Positions 2,304-42,535 of a DNA stretch of 42,535 bases are shown here, in pieces. The stretch's first letter is position 1. The number at the start of each line of letters is the position of its first letter. Position numbers and translations under genes: made by a program. Source of the stretch: Deltaproteobacteria bacterium. GTDB lineage: Bacteria > Myxococcota > JACRCW01 > JAFGSX01. The notes below the pieces were generated by a model that had not been told where the DNA came from, ran no database searches, and saw only the letters and a list, made by a program, of their open reading frames with translations. The stretch covers positions 1 to 42,535 of the forward strand of contig JAFGSX010000095.1 of NCBI GenBank assembly GCA_016934455.1, read 5' to 3'.

Positions 2304-3281
2304 ATGGCCTTCCCCGAGCATCGGCTGCGCCGGCTGCGCCGCAGCGCCGGGTTGCGCCGGCTGGTGCGCGAGACGCGGCTCCAGATCGATCAACTGGTGC
2401 TGCCGATGCCGGTGGTGGGCGGCGGCGACGTCAGCGCGGAGGTGCCGTCGCTGCCGGGCGTGCGCCGGCTATCGGCGGAGCGCGCGGCCGAGCTGGCGGC
2501 CCGGGCCAGCGACGCCGGGATCGGAGCCGTGCTGCTGTGCGGGGTGGGCGAGCGCGCCGACGACCAGGGCAGCGAGGCGTGGAGCGACGGCGGCCCGGTG
2601 GCGCGCGCGGCCCGCGCCATCCGCAAGCAGCGACCCGGGCTGGTGCTGCTGACCGAGGTGGCGGTGGGCCCTTTCGCCAGCGGGGGCCGCGCCGGTCCGG
2701 TCGGCCGCGGCGGCGACGGCAGCGCGGCGGTCGACAACGACGCCGCGCTCGAGCTGATCGGCCAGATCGCGCTCTGCCACGCCCGCGCCGGCGTCGACAT
2801 CCTGGTTCCGATCGAGCAGATCGACGGCAGCGTCGGCTTCGCGCGCGAGGCTCTCGACGACAAGGGATTCGAGGCGGTGGCGATCGCGGCCAGCGGGCGG
2901 CTGGCGTCGGCCTTTGACGCGGCGCCGGCGGACGGCGGGGAACCGCCGCTGCTGGCCGCGGCCAGCGAGCTGCTCGATCCCGCCAATGGCGGCGAGGCGC
3001 TGCGCGCGCTGGCGCTGGGGATCGAGGAGGGCGCGGATCTGGCGCTGATCCGGCCGTCGCTCCCGGCGCTGGACCTGATCGGCGCGGCGCGGCGCGAGTT
3101 CGAGCTGCCGCTGGCCGCGTGCCAGGGGTGGGCCGAGTATGCGATGATCTGCGCCGCGGTTGAGATCTGCCGGATCGACGGCGCGGCGGCGCACCTCGAA
3201 TCGCTGCTGGCCGTGCACCGCGCGGGGGCAGATCTGATCGCAACGCCGTGGGCGCTGGAGGCTGCGCGCCGGCTGCGCTAG
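2304..3281 (+). CDS. HemB/porphobilinogen synthase homologue lacking catalytic residues (pseudoenzyme)
   Basis: Colinear with HemB: '[20 protein letters not shown]', 'LPGVRRLS', 'GIGAVLLCGV', 'GSEAW', 'VDNDAALELIGQIALCHARAGVDILVPIEQIDGSVGFAREALDDKGF', 'ALDIGEEGADLALIRPSLPALDLI'-type block, 'EYAMI'. Catalytic Lys and metal Cys positions substituted. ATG 2304 preferred over 2268 because AGGTGG lies upstream. Confidence 0.85.
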   Translation: MAFPEHRLRRLRRSAGLRRLVRETRLQIDQLVLPMPVVGGGDVSAEVPSLPGVRRLSAERAAELAARASDAGIGAVLLCGVGERADDQGSEAWSDGGPVARAARAIRKQRPGLVLLTEVAVGPFASGGRAGPVGRGGDGSAAVDNDAALELIGQIALCHARAGVDILVPIEQIDGSVGFAREALDDKGFEAVAIAASGRLASAFDAAPADGGEPPLLAAASELLDPANGGEALRALALGIEEGADLALIRPSLPALDLIGAARREFELPLAACQGWAEYAMICAAVEICRIDGAAAHLESLLAVHRAGADLIATPWALEAARRLR

Positions 3282-3300
3282 ACGCGGACCGGACCGGGGG

Positions 3301-3513
3301 TTGCCGGTGAAGGTGACGCGCTACAAGGTCGTCGAGTGCATGACAGTGGCCGACGACACGCTGGAGTCGATACTCAACGAGTGGACGCGCCAGGGCTGGG
3401 TCTTCGACGGCATGACCTTCGTGCCCAACGAGGCGAGCAAGCGGCCCAAGATGGCGTTCGTGATCTTCACCCGGCAGGAGGAGATCGCCGACGACTCGGG
3501 GGATGCGACGTGA
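3301..3513 (+). CDS. Small DUF4177-like protein
   Basis: 'VTRYKVVECMTVADDTLESILNEWTRQGWVFDGMTFVPN' resembles DUF4177 (YKVV...LNEWaxqGW). TTG start; GTG 3307 is an alternative. Confidence 0.6.
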   Translation: MPVKVTRYKVVECMTVADDTLESILNEWTRQGWVFDGMTFVPNEASKRPKMAFVIFTRQEEIADDSGDAT

Positions 3514-4220
3514 GCGAAGACGATCGCGATGGCCGTCCAGATCTCGGCCCGTCCGACGTCTGGGACAACGATCCGTCCGCGCAGCGCCGGCAGACGCCGA
3601 TGGCAGTGGTGACCGCGGCCGATTTCGAGCGCCTCGGCCAACCGATCGACAGCGCCTCCGCCGCGGGCGAGCCGACGACGCCGGCCGTCACCGCGATGTC
3701 GCCTGCCGCGGGCGATGCAGCGGACGCGGGCACGGGCGCCGACGCGGCGCCGCCCGCCGGCCAGCCGGAGGCCTCCGATCGGGCACCGACGCCGGCCAAG
3801 TCCGATCTGCAGTTGCGCGTCATCGCCCGCGCCATCGACGTCGCGATCTTCGCGCTGCTGGCCGAATCGGTGGCCTTTGTGGGCCCGCTGGCCGCGCTGG
3901 TCTACCTGCTGCTGGCCGACGCCCTGTTCGAGGGAGCCTCGGTCGGCAAGCGGCTGACCCGGCTGCGGGTGGTGCGCTCGCGCGATCGCAAGCCGGCCAA
4001 CGTCTTCGACTCGCTGCTGCGCAACGCACCGCTCGGCATCGCCGGGCTGTTCGTTCTGATCCCGCTCGTCGGCTGGGCGCTGTTTTTGACGCTCGGCCTC
4101 GCCATCCTGCTGTTCGAGGGCTACCTGGTCTGGACCGACGGCCGGGGCGTCCGCGCCGGCGACATCCTGGCCGGCACCCAGGTGATCGAGATGCGGCGCC
4201 AGATCGCCGGCGAGCGCTGA
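3510..4220 (+). CDS. RDD family membrane protein with a disordered N-terminus
   Basis: GTG overlaps the upstream TGA (GTGA). 'LQLRVIARAIDVAIFALL', 'ASVGKRLTRLRVV', 'NAPLGI...' match the RDD domain layout. Confidence 0.8.
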   Translation: MSEDDRDGRPDLGPSDVWDNDPSAQRRQTPMAVVTAADFERLGQPIDSASAAGEPTTPAVTAMSPAAGDAADAGTGADAAPPAGQPEASDRAPTPAKSDLQLRVIARAIDVAIFALLAESVAFVGPLAALVYLLLADALFEGASVGKRLTRLRVVRSRDRKPANVFDSLLRNAPLGIAGLFVLIPLVGWALFLTLGLAILLFEGYLVWTDGRGVRAGDILAGTQVIEMRRQIAGER

Positions 4221-4247
4221 CGCGCGCCGATCGCGCCGGTCCGGTGA

Positions 4248-4976
4248 TCAGGGCGCCGCGCTGCCGGGGCTGCTCGGCGTCGGCGGAGAGCCGGGCGCCG
4301 CGCGAAACGTGAACGGATAGGTGACGATCACGGTGCCGCCGCCCCGGGGGGCCTTCATGCGCAAGGCGTACATGGTCTCGCGCACGCACTCGGCCAGCTC
4401 GGGGTGCTGTTGCTCGGCCTCCTGGTTCAGGATATCGCTCGACGTCACGATGCCCCCCAGCTCGGGGGCGCCCTCGATCTTGAACTTGACCTTGAGCGTG
4501 ACATCGGGAAGCGGTTGGTCCTCGGGAGTCATCTCGTAGCACTCCCGGATCAGCGGCACGATCTCTCTGATGCGCGCCTGGATGTACTCCCTGTCGAGGC
4601 TGCCGAACTGGGAGTCGCTGCCCGGAGCGGACTGCGCCTGGCCCGCCGTCGCGGGCACGGCGGCCTCTTCCTCGGCTCGCTTCTTCTCGGTCAGCTTTTG
4701 CTGGATCGCCTTGAGCAACTGGGCGCGCTGCTCGGCGTCGATGCGCTCCACGCCCGGCACCTGCGTCTGCGGCAGGCGCAGCGGTCGGGCCGCTGTCGAC
4801 CGCGGCCCGGCCGCCCCAGCGGCGGGGTCGCCGGCAGCGGCGGGCGCGGTGGTCGGCGGCGTCTCGGGAATCGGCGGCGGTGACTGCCGCCGCAGGTACC
4901 AGATCAGCGCCACCACGGCCAGCAGCGCGATCGCGGTGGCGACCAGTTGCAGCAGCGACGACGATCGTCTGGCCAT
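4248..4976 (-). CDS. Membrane-anchored protein with an AgmX/TonB-like C-terminal domain
   Basis: N-terminal TM segment 'LLQLVATAIALLAVVALIWYL', Pro/Ala linker, then 'IREIVPLIRECYEM...PDVTLKVKFKIEGAPELGGIVTSSDIL...LAECVRETMYALRMKAPRGGGTVIVTYPFTF', as in myxobacterial AgmX/PglI C-terminal domains. Confidence 0.75.
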   Translation of the reverse strand: MARRSSSLLQLVATAIALLAVVALIWYLRRQSPPPIPETPPTTAPAAAGDPAAGAAGPRSTAARPLRLPQTQVPGVERIDAEQRAQLLKAIQQKLTEKKRAEEEAAVPATAGQAQSAPGSDSQFGSLDREYIQARIREIVPLIRECYEMTPEDQPLPDVTLKVKFKIEGAPELGGIVTSSDILNQEAEQQHPELAECVRETMYALRMKAPRGGGTVIVTYPFTFRAAPGSPPTPSSPGSAAP

Positions 4977-33596: not shown

Positions 33597-34658
33597 TCAG
33601 CGCGCCTGGCTGGCCGGCGCCAGAGGTGACTGCCGCGCGCGGTAGGCGTCGCGCAGCGCGACGGCCCGGTCGGCCAGAGCCGCGTCCACGCTCTTGCCGC
33701 GCACCACCGCCAGCGCCTCGACCGACCGCGCCCTCCATTCGGCGAGCTGCGCCGGCGTCGGCGTGTGCACGGTGAGCCCGCGCCGGCGCATGATCGCGAT
33801 CGACGCCTCCGCGTCGGCCCGCGCCCGCGCGGTCAGCTCCCGACCGAGCTGCCGGGCACGGGCGCGGATGCGCTCGCGCGCCGCGGGATCGATCTGCTGC
33901 CAGACCGCCGCGGTCACGATGGTGCCGCCGAGCATCGAGCCCCAGCGCACGTCGATCAGGTGCGGCGTCAGCGGATAGCTGCCGAGCGCGACCGCGGTCA
34001 CCGGCGTGGTCGGAAACACCTCGACCAGGCCGGTCTGCAGCGAGGGTATGACGTCGACGTCGGACAGGATCACCGGCTCGAAGCCGAGCAGGGCAAAGCT
34101 CCTGGCCGCGTGCGGGTCGCCCGGCCACATCCACATCCGCATGCCCTTGACGTCGGCGACCGAGACCGCTGGCCGCCTGGTGAAAAACTGGATCCAGCCG
34201 CCGTCGCACCAGAACAGCGCGACGTAGCCGTCCTCCTCCAGCGCCCGGTCGAAGGTGGGCTGCATCTCGCCGACCACCGCGTCCATCTCGTCGGTGTCGT
34301 CGAAAAGCATCGGCAACTGCACCGCCATCTGCTCGGTGGTGATCAGCGCCAGCCCCTTGCTGGTCAGCGTCGCGGCGTGAAGCTGGCCGATGCGCAGCTT
34401 GCGCACGATGGCGGCCTCGTCGCCGACGCTGCCCGGGTAGATCTGCAGCCGCACGCGGCCACCGGTCTCGGCGCTGAAGACCTCGGCCAGCTCGAGCAGT
34501 GACTTGTGGACGATGGTGCCAAAGGGCGCCACCGTGCCCAGCTTGATCACGAGCGGTGCCGGCTCGGCGGTGGTACCTGGTGTCGGAGCCGGTATCAGCA
34601 AGGTGGCGAGCGCGATCGCCAGCGCGCCGGCGGCGCGGCCTGTCGCCCGGCCGCTCAA
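33597..34658 (-). CDS. TRAP transporter substrate-binding protein, DctP family
   Basis: 'LVIKLGTVAPFGTIVHKSLLELAEVFSAETGGRVRLQIYPGSVGDEAAIVRKLRIGQLHAATLTSKGLALI', 'VADVKGMRMWMWP'. TTG start overlaps the upstream TGA (TTGA). Confidence 0.9.
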   Translation of the reverse strand: MSGRATGRAAGALAIALATLLIPAPTPGTTAEPAPLVIKLGTVAPFGTIVHKSLLELAEVFSAETGGRVRLQIYPGSVGDEAAIVRKLRIGQLHAATLTSKGLALITTEQMAVQLPMLFDDTDEMDAVVGEMQPTFDRALEEDGYVALFWCDGGWIQFFTRRPAVSVADVKGMRMWMWPGDPHAARSFALLGFEPVILSDVDVIPSLQTGLVEVFPTTPVTAVALGSYPLTPHLIDVRWGSMLGGTIVTAAVWQQIDPAARERIRARARQLGRELTARARADAEASIAIMRRRGLTVHTPTPAQLAEWRARSVEALAVVRGKSVDAALADRAVALRDAYRARQSPLAPASQAR

Positions 34659-36148
34659 TCGAGCACCGCCTGCTCGCCGGTGCGCAGCACCTCGAGCACC
34701 TCGGCCGGGGTCTCGGCGGTCAGCAGCCGCTCCTTCACGTACTCGCTCTCGTGGAGCATGGTGGAGATGATCGTCTGCAGCCGCTGGTGAACGCGCGGCT
34801 GGCCGGCCGGGGTCAGCAGCACGATCAGCAGCAGCGCGCGCTCGGTCGTGCCCTGGCACTGCACGCCGCCGGAGGAACGCAACACCATCACGAACGGCTT
34901 GCTCAGCCCGCTCAGCCGCGCGTGCGGCATTGCGATGCCGTCGCCCAGGTACAGGCCGACCAGCTTCTCGCGTTCCTTGAGCGCCTTGATGAGCTGGTTG
35001 GCCGGCAGCGGCAGCGCCGAGGCCGGCATCAGCTTGAGAGCGGAGCGAACCGCCGCGACCGGCGATTCGCCGGCGACGTCGAGGTGGATGCGGTCGAGCA
35101 GCAGCGCGTCGGCCAGGCGCACCGGCTCCTCGTCCTCGAACTCGTCGCGGATGGTGCCGACCAGCTCCTCGATCACGTCCTCGAGCGTGATGAAGCCGCT
35201 CCACTGCCCGTTGCGGTCGGTCACCAGCGCGGCGTGCAACCGGCGGCGCTGCATCTCGGCGATCAACGACTCCAGCAGCGTGTTCTCGGAGGTGGTCAGG
35301 ATCGGCCGCATGAGCGCGCGCAAGTCGTGGGAACGCGCATCGGGGCGCATCACCAGATCCTTGAGGTGGATGAAACCGCACGGCAGATCGCGCTCGCCAT
35401 CGAGCAGCGGATAGCGGGTGAAGCGCGAGGCGCGGATCAGGCTGAGGTTGGTCTCCCAGTCGGCACGCGCGTCGAGGCAGCGCACCAGCGACCGCGGCCG
35501 CATCGCGTCGCGCACGGTCAGGCCGCCGAAGTCGAACACGTTTTCGAGAAAGATCAGCCGCCTAAACGACATCAGGCCGCGCTCCTGCGACTGGTCGAGG
35601 ATGATGCGCAGCTCCTCCTCGCTGTGCCGCTCCTCGGCGGTCGGCCGCGACACGCCGAGCAGGCGCAGGATGCCGTTGGTCAGCAGGTTGAGCAGCCAGA
35701 GCGCGGGAAAGAACAGGTGGCGCGCGTAGCGCAGCGGCTTGGCGATCGCCAGCGCCATCCGGTCGGCGAGCCGGATCGCCAGAAACTTGGGCACCTGCTC
35801 GCCGAGCACGATGTGCGAGCCCGAGACCAGGGCGTAGGAGGCGGCGAGCGCGACGCCGTAGCGCAGCGCCGTGTGGTCGGTGTCGCCGGCGAGAACGTCC
35901 AGAGCGCGCTTGCCGACCATGCCGAGGGCGATGCTGGCGAGGGTGATTCCGACCTGGCAGACGCTGAGGTACTCGTCGAGGTGGTCCTGGATGGCGGCCA
36001 GGGTGCGCGCCCGCCGATCGCCCGCGGCCTCGAGCTCGGCCACGCGCGACGATCGCACCTTGACGATGGCGAACTCGGCGAGCACGAAAAAGGCGTTGAG
36101 CGCGAGCAGGGCAAGCAGCGCCAGCGCGAGCGCGACCAGTTCGAACAC
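34655..36148 (-). CDS. CNNM transmembrane/CBS-pair protein with a C-terminal PTS EIIA (type 2)-like domain
   Basis: CNNM 'LALLALNAFFVLAEFAIVKVRSSRV...VCQVGITLASIALGMVGK...GEQVPKFLAIRLADRMAL'; CBS pair; EIIA-like 'LVGLYLGDGIAMPHARLSGLSKPFVMVLRSSGGVQ'. Confidence 0.88.
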   Translation of the reverse strand: MFELVALALALLALLALNAFFVLAEFAIVKVRSSRVAELEAAGDRRARTLAAIQDHLDEYLSVCQVGITLASIALGMVGKRALDVLAGDTDHTALRYGVALAASYALVSGSHIVLGEQVPKFLAIRLADRMALAIAKPLRYARHLFFPALWLLNLLTNGILRLLGVSRPTAEERHSEEELRIILDQSQERGLMSFRRLIFLENVFDFGGLTVRDAMRPRSLVRCLDARADWETNLSLIRASRFTRYPLLDGERDLPCGFIHLKDLVMRPDARSHDLRALMRPILTTSENTLLESLIAEMQRRRLHAALVTDRNGQWSGFITLEDVIEELVGTIRDEFEDEEPVRLADALLLDRIHLDVAGESPVAAVRSALKLMPASALPLPANQLIKALKEREKLVGLYLGDGIAMPHARLSGLSKPFVMVLRSSGGVQCQGTTERALLLIVLLTPAGQPRVHQRLQTIISTMLHESEYVKERLLTAETPAEVLEVLRTGEQAVLD

Positions 36149-36267
36149 CCGACCTCCAGCTTCCCGGCTCAGGACGACCGCTCCACCTTACCACGTTCGC
36201 CGGCGCGTGTTGCGAGGCGGCGATTGTGCGCCTTGACCTCGGGCAGGCGTGCCCCGACAATCGCGCC

Positions 36268-37623
36268 ATGAACATCATCGTCGCCGGCGCCGGTGAGGTG
36301 GGCAGCAGCGTGGCGCGCCACCTGGCGCGCGAGGGCCACGACGTCACCGTGATCGACCGCAACCCGGATCGCATCGCCAAGATCGGGGAGAGCGCCGACG
36401 TGCTGACCTACACCGGCTCCAGCGCGTCGCTGCGCGTGCTGCGCGAGGCGGGGGTGGCCAAGGCAGACCTGCTGATCGCGGTCAGCAACAACAACGAGGT
36501 CAACCTGCTGACCGCCATCATCGCCAAGCAGCTCGGCGTCAAGACCGCGGTCGCCCGCACCAGCGACCCCGACCAGGTCGACGCGGAGGTCGGCTTCAGC
36601 ACCGACGTGCTGGGTGTCGACCTGGTGGTCTGCCCGGAGGTGCTGACCGCGGCCGAGCTGACGCAGGTGGTTCGCTCGCGCGGCGCGGTGGCGATCGAGC
36701 GCTTCGCCCAGAACCGGGTCGAGCTGATCCAGCTCGCGGTGCAGCCCGGCACGGCGCCGACCCAGCACAAGCTGCGCGACCTCAAGCTGCCGCGCGGGGC
36801 GCTGGTGGTGGCGCTGCTGCGCAACGACGAGCTGATCGTGCCCTACGGCGACGATGTGCTGCACACCGACGACGACGCTTTCGTCATCGGCCGCACCGAC
36901 GTGATCGGGCAGATCGAGGCGCTGTTCGGCAAGCGCCGGGCCCGCGCCGGACGCCGCGTGATCTTGTTCGGCGGCGACCTGCTGGCGCGGGCGGTGGTCC
37001 GCTCGCTGCGCGACGAGAAGGCGCGCGTCACGGTCATCGATCGCAAGGCGGCGGCCTGCCAGGCGCTGGCGGTCGAACCCGACCTCAACGTGGTGCACGG
37101 CGACGCCACCGACGGCGGGCTGCTCAAGGAGGAGGGCATCGAGCACGCCGACATCTTCGCCGCGCTAACCCGCGAGGACGACCTCAACTTGCTGTCGACG
37201 CTGTTGGCCAAGCAGCTCGGCGCTCGCCGCACGCTGGCTTTGGTGCAGAAGACCGAGTACGCGGCGATCTACCGTCGGCTCGGCGTCGATGCCACCATCT
37301 GCCCCTGGCTGCTGGTGGCCAACCAGATCCTGCGCTACGTGCGGCCGAGCGAGCTGATCAGCATCTCCTTGCTCGAGGGCGGCAAGGGCGAGGTGCTCGA
37401 GTTCAGAGCGCGCGCGCGCAGCCGCATCGTCGGCAAACCGCTCAAGCAGCTCGACTTTCCGCGCGGTGCCATCATCGGCGCGGTGATGCGGCACGACGAG
37501 GCCTTCGTACCCGGAGGCGCCGACGCCATAGAGGTCGACGACCTGGTGGTGGTGTTCGCGCTGCCGCGAGTGCGCGAACAGGTGGCCAGGCTGTTTGGCG
37601 AACGCCACTGGCTGATCGGTTGA
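36268..37623 (+). CDS. trkA: Trk system potassium transporter, NAD-binding peripheral protein TrkA
   Basis: 'MNIIVAGAGEVGSSVARHLAREGHDVTVIDRNPDRI...', second Rossmann 'VILFGGDLLARAVVRSLRDEKARVTVIDRK', two TrkA-C-like regions. Confidence 0.95.
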   Translation: MNIIVAGAGEVGSSVARHLAREGHDVTVIDRNPDRIAKIGESADVLTYTGSSASLRVLREAGVAKADLLIAVSNNNEVNLLTAIIAKQLGVKTAVARTSDPDQVDAEVGFSTDVLGVDLVVCPEVLTAAELTQVVRSRGAVAIERFAQNRVELIQLAVQPGTAPTQHKLRDLKLPRGALVVALLRNDELIVPYGDDVLHTDDDAFVIGRTDVIGQIEALFGKRRARAGRRVILFGGDLLARAVVRSLRDEKARVTVIDRKAAACQALAVEPDLNVVHGDATDGGLLKEEGIEHADIFAALTREDDLNLLSTLLAKQLGARRTLALVQKTEYAAIYRRLGVDATICPWLLVANQILRYVRPSELISISLLEGGKGEVLEFRARARSRIVGKPLKQLDFPRGAIIGAVMRHDEAFVPGGADAIEVDDLVVVFALPRVREQVARLFGERHWLIG

Positions 37624-37633
37624 GGAACGCGAC

Positions 37634-39079
37634 GTGCACCCGAAGACCGTCGCCTACCTGTTGAGCCTGATCGTGGGCATCCTGGCCGCCTCGCTGGCGG
37701 TGCCGCTGGCGGCGGCGATCGCCTTTGGCGAGATTCGCAGCGCCTGGGCCTTTGGCGCCGCGCTGCTGTGCTCGGCGTTGACCGGGCTGGTGTTGCGGCG
37801 GCAGTCCGGAGCCGCACCGGCGACGGTCTACCGGCGCGAGGCGGTGGCCGTGGTCGGGTTGAGCTGGTTCTTGATCTCGCTGCTCGGCGGCCTGCCCTAT
37901 TTTCTCGACGGCTCGCTGCCGACATTGTTCGACTCGACCTTCGAGGCGGCCTCCGGTTTCACCACCACCGGCGCCTCGGTCTACCGCGAGGTCGAGACGC
38001 TGAGCCGCAGCATCCTGCTCTGGCGCTCGCTGACCCACTGGCTGGGAGGCATGGGCATCATCGTGCTGTTCGTCGCCATCTTCAGCCAGCTCGGCGTCGG
38101 CGGCCGCCGCCTGTTCGAGGTCGAGGTGCCGGGTCCGATCACCGAGGGGCTGCGGCCCAAGATCCGCGAGACCTCGAGCGCTCTGTGGCGCATCTACGTG
38201 ACGTTGACCCTGCTGCTGATCGGGGCGCTGATGCTGTGCGGTCTGGACTGGTTCGACGCGGTCAACCACGCCTTCGCCACCCTGGCCACCGGCGGCTTCT
38301 CGACCAGGAACTTGTCGGTCGCCGGCCTGAAGAACCCGGCCGCCGAATGGGTGATCGCGCTGTTCATGCTGATCGCCGGAGTCAACTTCGCGCTCTACTA
38401 CGCCGCGCTGCACGGCCGGCTGCGCACGCTGTGGCGCGACGTAGAGCTACGAGTGTACCTGGCGATCGTGGGGGTGGCGGCGCTGCTGATCGCGATCGAC
38501 ATCTGGGGCCGCTACGATTCGGTGCACGATACCCTCCGCGCCGCGGTGTTCCAGACCGTCGCCATCACCACCACCACCGGCTTCGCCAGCGATAACTTCG
38601 ACGCCTACCCGGTGACGAGCAAGGTGATCCTGGTGACGCTGATGTTCATCGGCGGCTGCGCCGGCAGCACCGCCGGCGGCCTCAAGGTGTCGCGCATCGT
38701 GGTCGCGCTCAAGGCGGCCTGGATCGAGGTGGTGCAGGGCTTTCACCCGCAGGGCGTGATCCGGTTGCGGCTGGGCAGCGCCGTCATCGGCGACGACATC
38801 GTGCGCAGCATCCTGGCCTACCTCGCGCTCTACTTCGCGATCTTCGTGGCCGGCTCGGTCGTCATGGCCGCGCTCGGCCTCGATCTGGTGACCGCGGTCA
38901 CCTCGGTCGTCGCCACCCTCGGCAGCATCGGCCCGGGGCTGGGCAAGATCGGCGCCATCGAGAACTACGCCTTCGTGCCGGCCGCGGGCAAGGCGGTGCT
39001 GATCTGCTGCATGATCCTGGGCCGGCTCGAGCTGACCGCGGTGCTGGCGTTGCTAAGCCGCGCGCTGTGGCGGCGCTGA
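37634..39079 (+). CDS. trkH: TrkH family potassium uptake protein
   Basis: 'FDSTFEAASGFTTTGASV', 'SLTHWLGGMGIIVLFVAIFSQLGVGGRRLFEVEVPGP', 'AVNHAFATLATGGFSTRN', 'FMFIGGCAGSTAGGLKV' type motifs; GTG start. Confidence 0.97.
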   Translation: MHPKTVAYLLSLIVGILAASLAVPLAAAIAFGEIRSAWAFGAALLCSALTGLVLRRQSGAAPATVYRREAVAVVGLSWFLISLLGGLPYFLDGSLPTLFDSTFEAASGFTTTGASVYREVETLSRSILLWRSLTHWLGGMGIIVLFVAIFSQLGVGGRRLFEVEVPGPITEGLRPKIRETSSALWRIYVTLTLLLIGALMLCGLDWFDAVNHAFATLATGGFSTRNLSVAGLKNPAAEWVIALFMLIAGVNFALYYAALHGRLRTLWRDVELRVYLAIVGVAALLIAIDIWGRYDSVHDTLRAAVFQTVAITTTTGFASDNFDAYPVTSKVILVTLMFIGGCAGSTAGGLKVSRIVVALKAAWIEVVQGFHPQGVIRLRLGSAVIGDDIVRSILAYLALYFAIFVAGSVVMAALGLDLVTAVTSVVATLGSIGPGLGKIGAIENYAFVPAAGKAVLICCMILGRLELTAVLALLSRALWRR

Positions 39080-39712: not shown

Positions 39713-41011
39713 CTATGCATCCCAGTAGCTCTGCTCCAGGCTGTCCTCGCGCTCGGGCAAGCTGTGCCACAGCCGTGGCGAGTTGCGGCGCAGCACCTCG
39801 TAGCTGACGCGGTTGGCGTACTTGCAGATCTGGTGGATCGACGAATAGGTCAGGTAGCGCGCCTTGTGCTTGGGCGAGGTCGGCGACGCCAGCCGGTGGT
39901 GGATGTTGGCCGCGATGTCGTGCAGCAGCGCGGCCAGCGCCGAGTCGCCGGCGCCGTTGGTGTTGCGGATGACGCTCGGCCCGCCGAGGTAAGGGTTGAT
40001 GTGGGAGTAGATCTTGATCGGCGATCGGCAGTCGCGCCGGGCCATGGCGCGGCTGTACTCGAAGCGGTTGTACTCGGCGATCGACTTGGAATGGATCTGG
40101 TCGCGCGTCTCGCGACGCAGCGCCTCGTCGACGTGGCCGCACAGGTAGAGCCCGTGCTGGTCGCGGGTGAGCAGACACAGATCGCACAGCTCGAGCGCGG
40201 CCTGGCCCGCCAGCAGCGGATCGGACTGCTGGGTCAGCGCACCGACCTCGTCGAGATTGCCGGCGACGATGCAGATGCTGGCCTGGCGGATGACGTCGAT
40301 GAAGAAGTCGCGCTTCTCGCGCACCAGCGGTTCGGTGCCGAGCGACAGCACGACCGGCACCGCCGTCCGGTTGGCCAGCTCGATGGCGCGCATGGCGGCA
40401 CCGAAGATCGGCGTCCGCTCGTCGCGCAGCAGGTAGGTGGTCAGCACCAGCGCGGCGGCCCCGGTGATCAGCGGCTCGGGCACGGCGCTGGCCGGCAGGT
40501 CGTTCATGATGCCGCGGCTGATGCCGAAGCTGCGCTCGCCGTCGGGCGTGACGAAGCAGATGGCGCGCCCCAGCGGGCCGCCGGTCGGGTACAGGTAGCT
40601 CAGGTTGACGCGCGAGCTGGTGTTGCGCACGTAGTGAAAGGCGTAGTCGCCGACCGTGATCTGGCTGGTGATGCAGCCCAGCAGGTGCGAGTGGTCGTCG
40701 GCCAGCACCGAGTAGTTGTGCAGGGTGTTGCCGACAGCGCCGCCGGCGAACTCGCCGACCACGCGGCCGTCGGCCTTGAGCTGGCGGTAGACGCGGTCGA
40801 CCGTGGCGTCGTCGAGCAGCACCGACTGCCCCTTGGGGATGCCGGTCGCCTTGAGAAAAAGATCGTCGACGTGCGCCTCGACGTCGACCAGCAGTTGGTC
40901 GATGCCGACGATGTAGATCCGTTCGCCGTCGATCCGATCGTCAAACGAGACCCGGCCGCGCTCGGAGACCGGGAAGTAGTGCTTGGTCTTGCGTTTGCCA
41001 GGGAATTTCAT
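39713..41011 (-). CDS. gsk: Inosine-guanosine kinase
   Basis: 'MKFPGKRKTKHYFPVSERGR', 'VGIDQLLVDVEAHVDDLFL', 'FAGGAVGNTLHNYSVLADDHSHLLG', 'NTNGAGDSALAALLHDIAAN', 'CKYANRVSYEVL...LPEREDSLEQSYWDA' parallel E. coli Gsk along the full length. Confidence 0.97.
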   Translation of the reverse strand: MKFPGKRKTKHYFPVSERGRVSFDDRIDGERIYIVGIDQLLVDVEAHVDDLFLKATGIPKGQSVLLDDATVDRVYRQLKADGRVVGEFAGGAVGNTLHNYSVLADDHSHLLGCITSQITVGDYAFHYVRNTSSRVNLSYLYPTGGPLGRAICFVTPDGERSFGISRGIMNDLPASAVPEPLITGAAALVLTTYLLRDERTPIFGAAMRAIELANRTAVPVVLSLGTEPLVREKRDFFIDVIRQASICIVAGNLDEVGALTQQSDPLLAGQAALELCDLCLLTRDQHGLYLCGHVDEALRRETRDQIHSKSIAEYNRFEYSRAMARRDCRSPIKIYSHINPYLGGPSVIRNTNGAGDSALAALLHDIAANIHHRLASPTSPKHKARYLTYSSIHQICKYANRVSYEVLRRNSPRLWHSLPEREDSLEQSYWDA

Positions 41012-41116
41012 GGCTGCCTCGGCCGCCATCCGGGCCGTCGACCCGGACGACAGCGCTGCTCATAGCCGTCCCCCGCGCGCACCGCAAGCGGCGTCCGGCC
41101 GTGCTATACTGGGCCG

Positions 41117-42535
41117 ATGAAACGCTGCTGTGCTCTGCTCGCGAGCGCGCTCTGGGCCGCCTGCGCCGACAACGATCCGGCGCCGCCGGATGAGTTGTAC
41201 GATCTGGAGGTCAGCACCGCCGGCGGCTCGGCAGTGACCGCGCTCGGCGAGCCGAACGGCACCTTTCCCTGCTGGAAAGAGCGCGTCATCCACGTCTGGA
41301 GCAACCGCGCGCGAAGCGCTCCGCACGATGAGCTGCTGACCTGCCCCCCGGGCCGGGTCGCCGAAATCGAATGCTGGCCGGATGGCACCGCCGTCCCGCC
41401 CCTCGCCTGGAGCTACAATCTGAGCCGGTCTGCTCGGTTTCACTCGGCCCACCTGCTCCAGGCCGAGTGTTTTCAGCACGACTCGCCGTGCCCGCTGTTC
41501 GGCGACATCAGCAGCCGGTTCGACCCGGGCACGGAGTGCCCGACGGCCGAGATCCCGTGCTCGTGCTCCACCGGGGCGGCATCCTGCAACTCGCCCGACG
41601 CCGCTGCCAATACCTACTGGGCCACGCGCGTCGGCTATTTCGGCACCAGCCCGCGAGCCGAGAACATCGCCGGCGGCAACAGCGACCCCATCGCCTCGTT
41701 CAGGCAATGGATCTGCGAGGACACTGCCAATTCGGCCTGCGGCTATCATGGCAACGGCGACAACGGTCACCGCGTCAGCATCTTGAACAGCGCATTCGAG
41801 CGGCTAGGCGTCGGCTACTACACGCTGCCCAAATTCTACCGGCATATCTGGACCCAGGATTTTGGCGACGGCACGGTACCGACCGGCATCGTCTCGGGAG
41901 TCCATTACCCGCAGACCGGCGTCGACCTGGAGTTTCGCGCCAACTGGAACTTCGCGACAGCGCCGCAGACCAAACAGGTCAACATCGAGGGCACCTGCTA
42001 TCCGATGACCCTCGAGCGCGGGGAGAGCGCGAACAATGCCACCTACCTGGCCACGGTCTCCCTGCCGAGCGCAAGCTGCTCGCGCTATGTCTTCCACTTC
42101 ATCGATTCCAGCGGGGCCGACGTCTTTTATCCGTCGAGCGGCAGCCTGATGGTCAACTGCGGTGCGACCGAGTACGACAGCACGTCGCGGCCGCCGGATT
42201 GCACTAACGTCGACGCTGGTCAAAACGATGCCGCGCTTCCCGACACCGCGCTGCCCGACGCGGCGCAGCCCGACACCACGCTGCCAGACACCGCGCTGCC
42301 CGACGCGGCGCAGCCCGACACCACGCTGCCAGACACCGCGCTGCCCGACGCCGCACCACCGCAGGACGCCGCGCGGCCCGACGCCGCACCACCGCAGGAC
42401 GCCGCGCGGCCCGACACCGCGCTGCCCGACGCTGCGCGGCCCGACGCTGCGCAGCCCGACACCGCGCTGCCCGACACCGCGCAGCCCGACACCGCGCTGC
42501 CCGACACCGCGCAGCCCGACACCGCGCTGCCCGAC
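41117..42535 (+). CDS. CAP (SCP/PR-1/YkwD)-domain lipoprotein with a PD-rich repeat tail; 3' end outside the window
   Basis: Open frame from ATG 41117 to the right edge, not in the supplied ORF list. 'LLASALWAACAD' lipobox; CAP-like 'LSRSARFHSAHLLQAECFQHDSP', 'AENIAGGNSDPIASFRQWI', 'GHRVSILNSAFERLGVGYY', 'IWTQDFG'. Confidence 0.85.
   Translation, partial: MKRCCALLASALWAACADNDPAPPDELYDLEVSTAGGSAVTALGEPNGTFPCWKERVIHVWSNRARSAPHDELLTCPPGRVAEIECWPDGTAVPPLAWSYNLSRSARFHSAHLLQAECFQHDSPCPLFGDISSRFDPGTECPTAEIPCSCSTGAASCNSPDAAANTYWATRVGYFGTSPRAENIAGGNSDPIASFRQWICEDTANSACGYHGNGDNGHRVSILNSAFERLGVGYYTLPKFYRHIWTQDFGDGTVPTGIVSGVHYPQTGVDLEFRANWNFATAPQTKQVNIEGTCYPMTLERGESANNATYLATVSLPSASCSRYVFHFIDSSGADVFYPSSGSLMVNCGATEYDSTSRPPDCTNVDAGQNDAALPDTALPDAAQPDTTLPDTALPDAAQPDTTLPDTALPDAAPPQDAARPDAAPPQDAARPDTALPDAARPDAAQPDTALPDTAQPDTALPDTAQPDTALPD
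42227..42535 (+). repeat. In-frame PD-rich minisatellite (15 bp basal unit; 45, 33 and 30 bp higher-order units)
   Basis: DNA encodes [DTALPDAAQPDTTLP]x2 (45 bp), [DAAPPQDAARP]x2 (33 bp), then [DTALPDTAQP]n (30 bp), continuing to the window edge. Confidence 0.95.

Follow-up and report, generated by a model that had tools for sequence, protein, structure and literature searches.

A CNNM-CBS membrane protein of Myxococcota and Planctomycetota with a PTS EIIA domain in the CorC position, a candidate for control by phosphorylation in cis

The stretch of DNA analyzed here (the window; 42,535 nucleotides, contig JAFGSX010000095.1 of the metagenome-assembled genome (MAG) GCA_016934455.1, Deltaproteobacteria bacterium) contains, at positions 34655-36148 of the minus strand, an open reading frame of 497 amino acids in which a CNNM domain and a CBS pair are followed by a C-terminal PTS EIIA-2 domain. 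The features of the locus are:

34655..36148, minus strand: CNNM-CBS-EIIA fusion gene, 497 aa, GTG start (open reading frame, Pfam, tblastn)
36153..36157, minus strand: probable ribosome-binding site GGAGG, four bases upstream of the GTG of the fusion gene (sequence)
35570..36121, minus strand: CNNM (DUF21) transmembrane domain, residues 10-193 (Pfam and PDB alignment)
35159..35518, minus strand: CBS pair, residues about 211-330 (Pfam for the second CBS, PDB alignments for both, Foldseek)
34682..35095, minus strand: PTS_EIIA_2 domain, residues 352-489, occupying the CorC_HlyC position
34922..34924, minus strand: His409, predicted phosphoacceptor, equivalent to His73 of E. coli PtsN (PDB profile alignment, family alignment)
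34787..34789, minus strand: His454, second active-site histidine, equivalent to His120 of E. coli PtsN (PDB profile alignment, family alignment)
33597..34658, minus strand: gene for a DctP-type solute-binding protein, with a possible TTG start that overlaps the fusion gene's stop (TTGA)
36226..37623, plus strand: TrkA gene, divergent neighbor of the fusion gene (context only)
37634..39079, plus strand: TrkH gene, following the TrkA gene (context only)

The DctP-type gene is a possible operon partner of the fusion gene; the overlap does not recur at the other loci of the fusion. Elsewhere on the minus strand of the window, positions 39713-41029 encode an inosine/guanosine kinase (NF011655, 561.9 bits, cut-off 367) adjoining an unassigned 194 aa open reading frame, and an open reading frame at 42220-42522, at the contig end, is made of GSAVSG/GCAASG-like repeat units and is apparently of low complexity.

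A Pfam scan of the 497 aa protein assigned residues 10-193 to CNNM (E-value 3.5e-46, 157.6 bits against a cut-off of 28.4), residues 280-330 to the second CBS module (3.1e-9, over the gathering score) and residues 352-489 to PTS_EIIA_2 (8.8e-16, 58.6 bits against a cut-off of 27), and returned zero matches to CorC_HlyC. PDB alignments cover both CBS modules, the second of which is the one detected by Pfam. The HMM search bears out the fusion of CNNM, CBS and EIIA-like domains claimed in the initial annotation, and Pfam, PDB profile alignment and Foldseek agree with its placing of an EIIA-like domain where CorC/HlyC is usual. According to a genome search, the fusion is the sole CNNM protein found in the MAG.

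In a PDB profile search, His409 fell on His73 and His454 on His120 of E. coli EIIA-Ntr (1a6j), and GIAMPHAR of the fusion, proposed from the outset as a phosphoacceptor motif, aligns with GIAIPHGK of the E. coli protein. An AlphaFold model of the EIIA domain, built from 24 natural sequences, reached a pLDDT of 93.4 and a pTM of 0.89, and its best Foldseek matches were EIIA-Ntr structures (1a6j, E-value 1.4e-9, TM 0.82/0.86), so that structure prediction leads to the same assignment. The full-length AlphaFold model matched MtCorB (1.5e-19); its TM values reached 0.88 against solved CBS pairs and 0.86 (of the target) against EIIA-Ntr. Domain packing was not read from this model because of its pTM of 0.40 and a pLDDT below 50 at residues 168-201 and 333-337. 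The fused domain thus resembles EIIA-Ntr (PtsN) in fold and in a phosphoacceptor histidine within GxAxPHxR/K, but it is covalently part of a predicted membrane transporter and lies under the cut-off of the PtsN equivalog TIGR01419 (34 bits against 138.7), and the MAG retains a separate, ordinary ptsN gene, adjoining rpoN-like and hpf-like (ribosome-hibernation-factor-like) genes.

A tblastn search of 38 related genomes gave full-length matches in three other genomes (59-67% identity), and 6 of 196 Myxococcota genomes contain the fusion. Full-length sequences account for 25 of the 27 loci that a scan of 85,462 species genomes yielded; the loci lie in MAGs labeled Myxococcota or Deltaproteobacteria, Planctomycetota and, once each, Acidobacteria and Proteobacteria. 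The CBS-EIIA junction was matched at 1e-20 or better in 42 of 394 sampled Planctomycetota genomes (query genome included), and 39 of the 40 matches fetched were complete CNNM-CBS-EIIA proteins with 38-83% identity to the best-matching member of the named set, the one exception (L126) having another architecture. The window sequence, 25 named loci and these 39 further Planctomycetota sequences make up a set of 65 full-length members. Pfam detected CNNM, CBS and EIIA domains in 27/27 members of the family alignment A5 and CorC_HlyC in 0/27, and found the same three domains in far-diverged members; CorC_HlyC was present in all three unfused Myxococcota CNNM proteins scanned. In a tree of the CNNM-CBS part, for which the unfused set consisted solely of 24 Myxococcota CNNM proteins, a branch (100/99) splits the 65 fusions from the unfused proteins. 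The Myxococcota fusions are a single group (100/98) that branches from within the Planctomycetota sequences, suggesting that the fusion may have entered Myxococcota by a single transfer, and the Acidobacteria- and Proteobacteria-labeled fusions sit within the Myxococcota clade. Among plasmid relatives, no record spans 80% of the query; the matches listed stop at the CBS pair or shortly beyond it. One locus carries a tandem CNNM-CBS-EIIA pair (L078:639-2228 and 2948-4477) with a 202 aa gene in between, and one genome (G219) has four matches.

Among the 65 full-length members, the EIIA domains share a mean pairwise identity of 42% (lowest 20%), and His409 is retained in 64; Pro408, His409, Arg411, Pro447, Ser468 and Ala478 are the six EIIA columns each kept in 64/65. 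At the His454 column, 15 of the 66 aligned rows have Gln instead. As judged from these alignments, the fusion with its predicted active histidine has been retained in two phyla whose members are mostly uncultured. In one fusion (L106), Arg replaces the phosphoacceptor His (ALPRMR), which makes it a natural phospho-dead variant.

The MAG (5.6 Mb, 82% complete) has a single EI gene and a single HPr gene, side by side and preceded by EIIA-Man-like and RapZ-like genes. The EI shows the active-site motif GGKTSHTAILA and the HPr shows GLHARAA and a Ser46-type KSIMG, and the genome check for phosphate donors found both encoded with their active-site histidines. Neither observation that would count against the initial annotation was made: the C-terminus is not CorC_HlyC, and a PTS phosphodonor is not absent. 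Among the genomes of the named records, HPr is encoded in 27/27 and EI in 26/27. However, HPr is near-universal in both phyla (180/196 Myxococcota and 193/200 Planctomycetota genomes, 92-97%), and its co-occurrence was rejected as a link to the fusion; as EI and HPr are common in most genomes of both phyla, their presence, which the idea requires, only permits phosphorylation and is no evidence of a link.

The membrane part of the fusion retains the residues expected of a CorB-like core. In PDB alignments, Glu117-x-x-Pro120-Lys121 corresponds to the Glu111 pi-helix motif of MtCorB, and the three residues are kept in 66/66, 64/66 and 65/66 rows, respectively; in TtCorB, mutation of Glu118/Pro121/Lys122 lowered Mg2+ transport (PMC8242095). 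The CBS ATP-site residues Arg245 and Asp324 are present in 65/66 and 64/66 rows, and Arg245 falls on the ATP-site Arg235 of MtCorB, the column at which 7m1u (R235L structure) has Leu. Because Arg245 and Glu117-Pro-Lys are retained, an ATP-gated CorB-like core is plausible. The fusion shares the CNNM domain, the CBS pair, Glu-x-x-Pro-Lys and the ATP-site Arg with the CNNM/CorB-CorC family (MtCorB, TpCorC, MpfA, PaeA), whereas the C-terminal CorC_HlyC domain of that family is replaced by PTS EIIA.

We propose, with a probability of about 0.6, that the protein is a CNNM-type exporter and that HPr-dependent phosphorylation of its fused EIIA domain gates it in cis. The domains, the fold, the conserved catalytic and ligand residues and the donors encoded in the genome are observed, and from them we infer phosphorylation, its coupling to transport, the direction and the substrate. 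The EIIA-Ntr-like domain would form the terminal part of the cytosolic gate, in place of CorC, in a CNNM/CorB-type cation exporter, whose CBS pair would bind Mg2+-ATP as CorB does. EI would charge HPr from PEP and HPr~P would phosphorylate His409, the phosphorylation state of which would alter the packing of EIIA on the CBS pair and thereby open or close the membrane domain, and the transporter would in this way read ATP plus the PEP/pyruvate state. Since the EIIA domain that replaces CorC has its phosphoacceptor intact, control in cis by HPr is the most economical reading. Against it speak the unlinked PTS genes, the near-universal HPr, the unreliable inter-domain model, the Gln at the His454 column and the L106 protein lacking His409. 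Control by phosphotransfer or metabolic state, as first suggested, is supported by the retention of the histidine over deep divergence, but phosphorylation itself is a prediction.

In E. coli, the K+/H+ antiporter YcgO is silenced when unphosphorylated PtsN binds its CorC domain (PMC11808508), so that an EIIA-Ntr at the CorC position of a cation transporter has a precedent in trans. Both systems bring EIIA-Ntr to a CorC-type C-terminal region, but PtsN does so in trans, with the CorC domain of its target intact, whereas the fusion carries EIIA in cis and lacks CorC. Conversely, the YcgO model would be supported by the fusion, as evolution placed EIIA exactly at the CorC position. In MtCorB the CorC domain contacts CBS2 and is thought to act on it (PMC8242095). 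In the lactose transporter LacS, also a secondary transporter with a fused EIIA, HPr phosphorylates the EIIA-Glc-like domain and so controls transport, and the same source names LacS the sole bacterial transporter under direct phosphorylation control (PMC10710835). LacS differs in having an EIIA-Glc type domain on a sugar symporter that is unrelated in fold and substrate.

What the protein transports is less firmly predicted. The initial annotation spoke of a divalent-cation transporter, and Glu117-Pro120-Lys121 are kept, but the top NCBIfam subfamily is PaeA polyamine export (NF052568, 8.1e-38), and the Mg2+-cavity positions Ser21, Ser25 and Asn75 of MtCorB, all three polar, align with Asn18, Val22 and Ser72 of the fusion. 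In view of these changes and the PaeA match, the predicted transporter may be of the metal or the polyamine type, with Mg2+ or a polyamine as substrate. Both observations could indicate regulated transport of a polyamine or some other organic cation in place of Mg2+ or Co2+, which appears possible though doubtful: at 130.3 bits against a cut-off of 500 the fusion is not a PaeA orthologue, and the NxFFV..E pattern may not discriminate. MpfA-type Mg2+ exporters share this motif. An organic cation as substrate is compatible with gating in cis by phosphorylation. The fusion is placed in the CNNM/CorB family and is neither PtsN nor PaeA.

The EIIA domain might instead regulate unphosphorylated in vivo, as a structural dimerization or docking module like the EIIA-fold cytoplasmic domain of band 3. 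The EIIA model also matches the cytoplasmic domains of band 3, AE2 and NDCBE in Foldseek, and Band_3_cyto is weakly matched by Pfam in 5 of 27 members, indicating that the fold is used as a transporter module elsewhere. Band 3 and the other SLC4 anion exchangers likewise carry an EIIA-like fold on a transporter, but they are eukaryotic, have this domain at the N-terminus and match in fold at 13-19% identity. As CorC contacts CBS2 in MtCorB (PMC8242095), its replacement could be purely structural. However, a structural module need not keep an active-site histidine, and His409 is so strictly held, together with the flanking Pro and Arg, that a mere scaffold role is not expected; phosphate donors are also encoded in the genomes concerned. 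We therefore regard a structural role as unlikely.

Less probable still is that the fusion is a sensor whose CNNM core transports little and whose EIIA domain serves as phosphate sink or as a dock for PTS-controlled proteins such as Trk. The fusion gene is divergent to trkA-trkH in the window, E. coli EIIA-Ntr binds TrkA according to a review (PMC13104625), and transport by CNNM/CorB proteins themselves was long disputed (PMC8242095). On the other hand, the CorB pi-helix Glu-x-x-Pro-Lys is kept, as expected of a working transport core, and trkAH adjacency, seen in the window, occurs at none of the other 27 loci. No PTS gene is linked to the fusion at any of the 28 loci examined, and linkage to Trk or PTS genes was rejected as a functional clue. 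Some Planctomycetaceae have PSD1/DUF1553 and DUF2237 genes near the fusion, and two loci have a purL-type (FGAM synthase) gene; these recurrent neighbors say little on function. That a chimera, a frame error or a misassembly made the fusion, a concern with a draft MAG of 613 contigs and 82% completeness, is refuted by full-length relatives (49-67% identity) that come from independent assemblies of two phyla and form one clade.

No paper describing a CNNM-CBS-EIIA fusion was found in the literature, although architecture databases such as InterPro may list it uncommented; the CNNM and EIIA domains are each known, and their combination, its breadth and its histidine conservation were in no paper found. 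If phosphorylation gates the fused transporter in cis, it would join LacS as a second kind of bacterial transporter under the control of its own phosphorylation; no other ion transporter is known to us to be so controlled. Cells may then switch the transporter by energy and carbon state, and the efflux of metals or polyamines may come under covalent control in cis by the regulatory PTS, beyond the binding of free PtsN. Chances appear about even for the broader claim that Planctomycetota and Myxococcota share a widespread class of ion transporters switched by a fused EIIA domain whose histidine is phosphorylated directly at the expense of PEP, one protein integrating ATP (through the CBS pair) and PEP/pyruvate (through EIIA). 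According to a 2008 survey (PMC2405797), Planctomycetes have a regulatory EI but lack PTS sugar transporters; the fusion family would provide a concrete, testable target for their PTS.

Fusion of EIIA to ion transporters is, judging by predicted proteins, a recurring theme. Na+/H+ exchangers with a C-terminal EIIA domain occur in the same phylum (L046:1456-3168, minus strand; L054:1-1875, plus strand), their active sites reading PHG and PHA, and a 1137 aa open frame (L045) carries an N-terminal EIIA domain (AVPHCR) on what by eye resembles a cation P-type ATPase. At five loci of Opitutales MAGs (L082-L086, e.g., L082:3905-5272), EIIA is fused to DacZ_P and DAC (diadenylate cyclase), the domains being assigned by Pfam in L082 and by sequence likeness in L083-L086, and these proteins are possible PTS-controlled c-di-AMP synthases.
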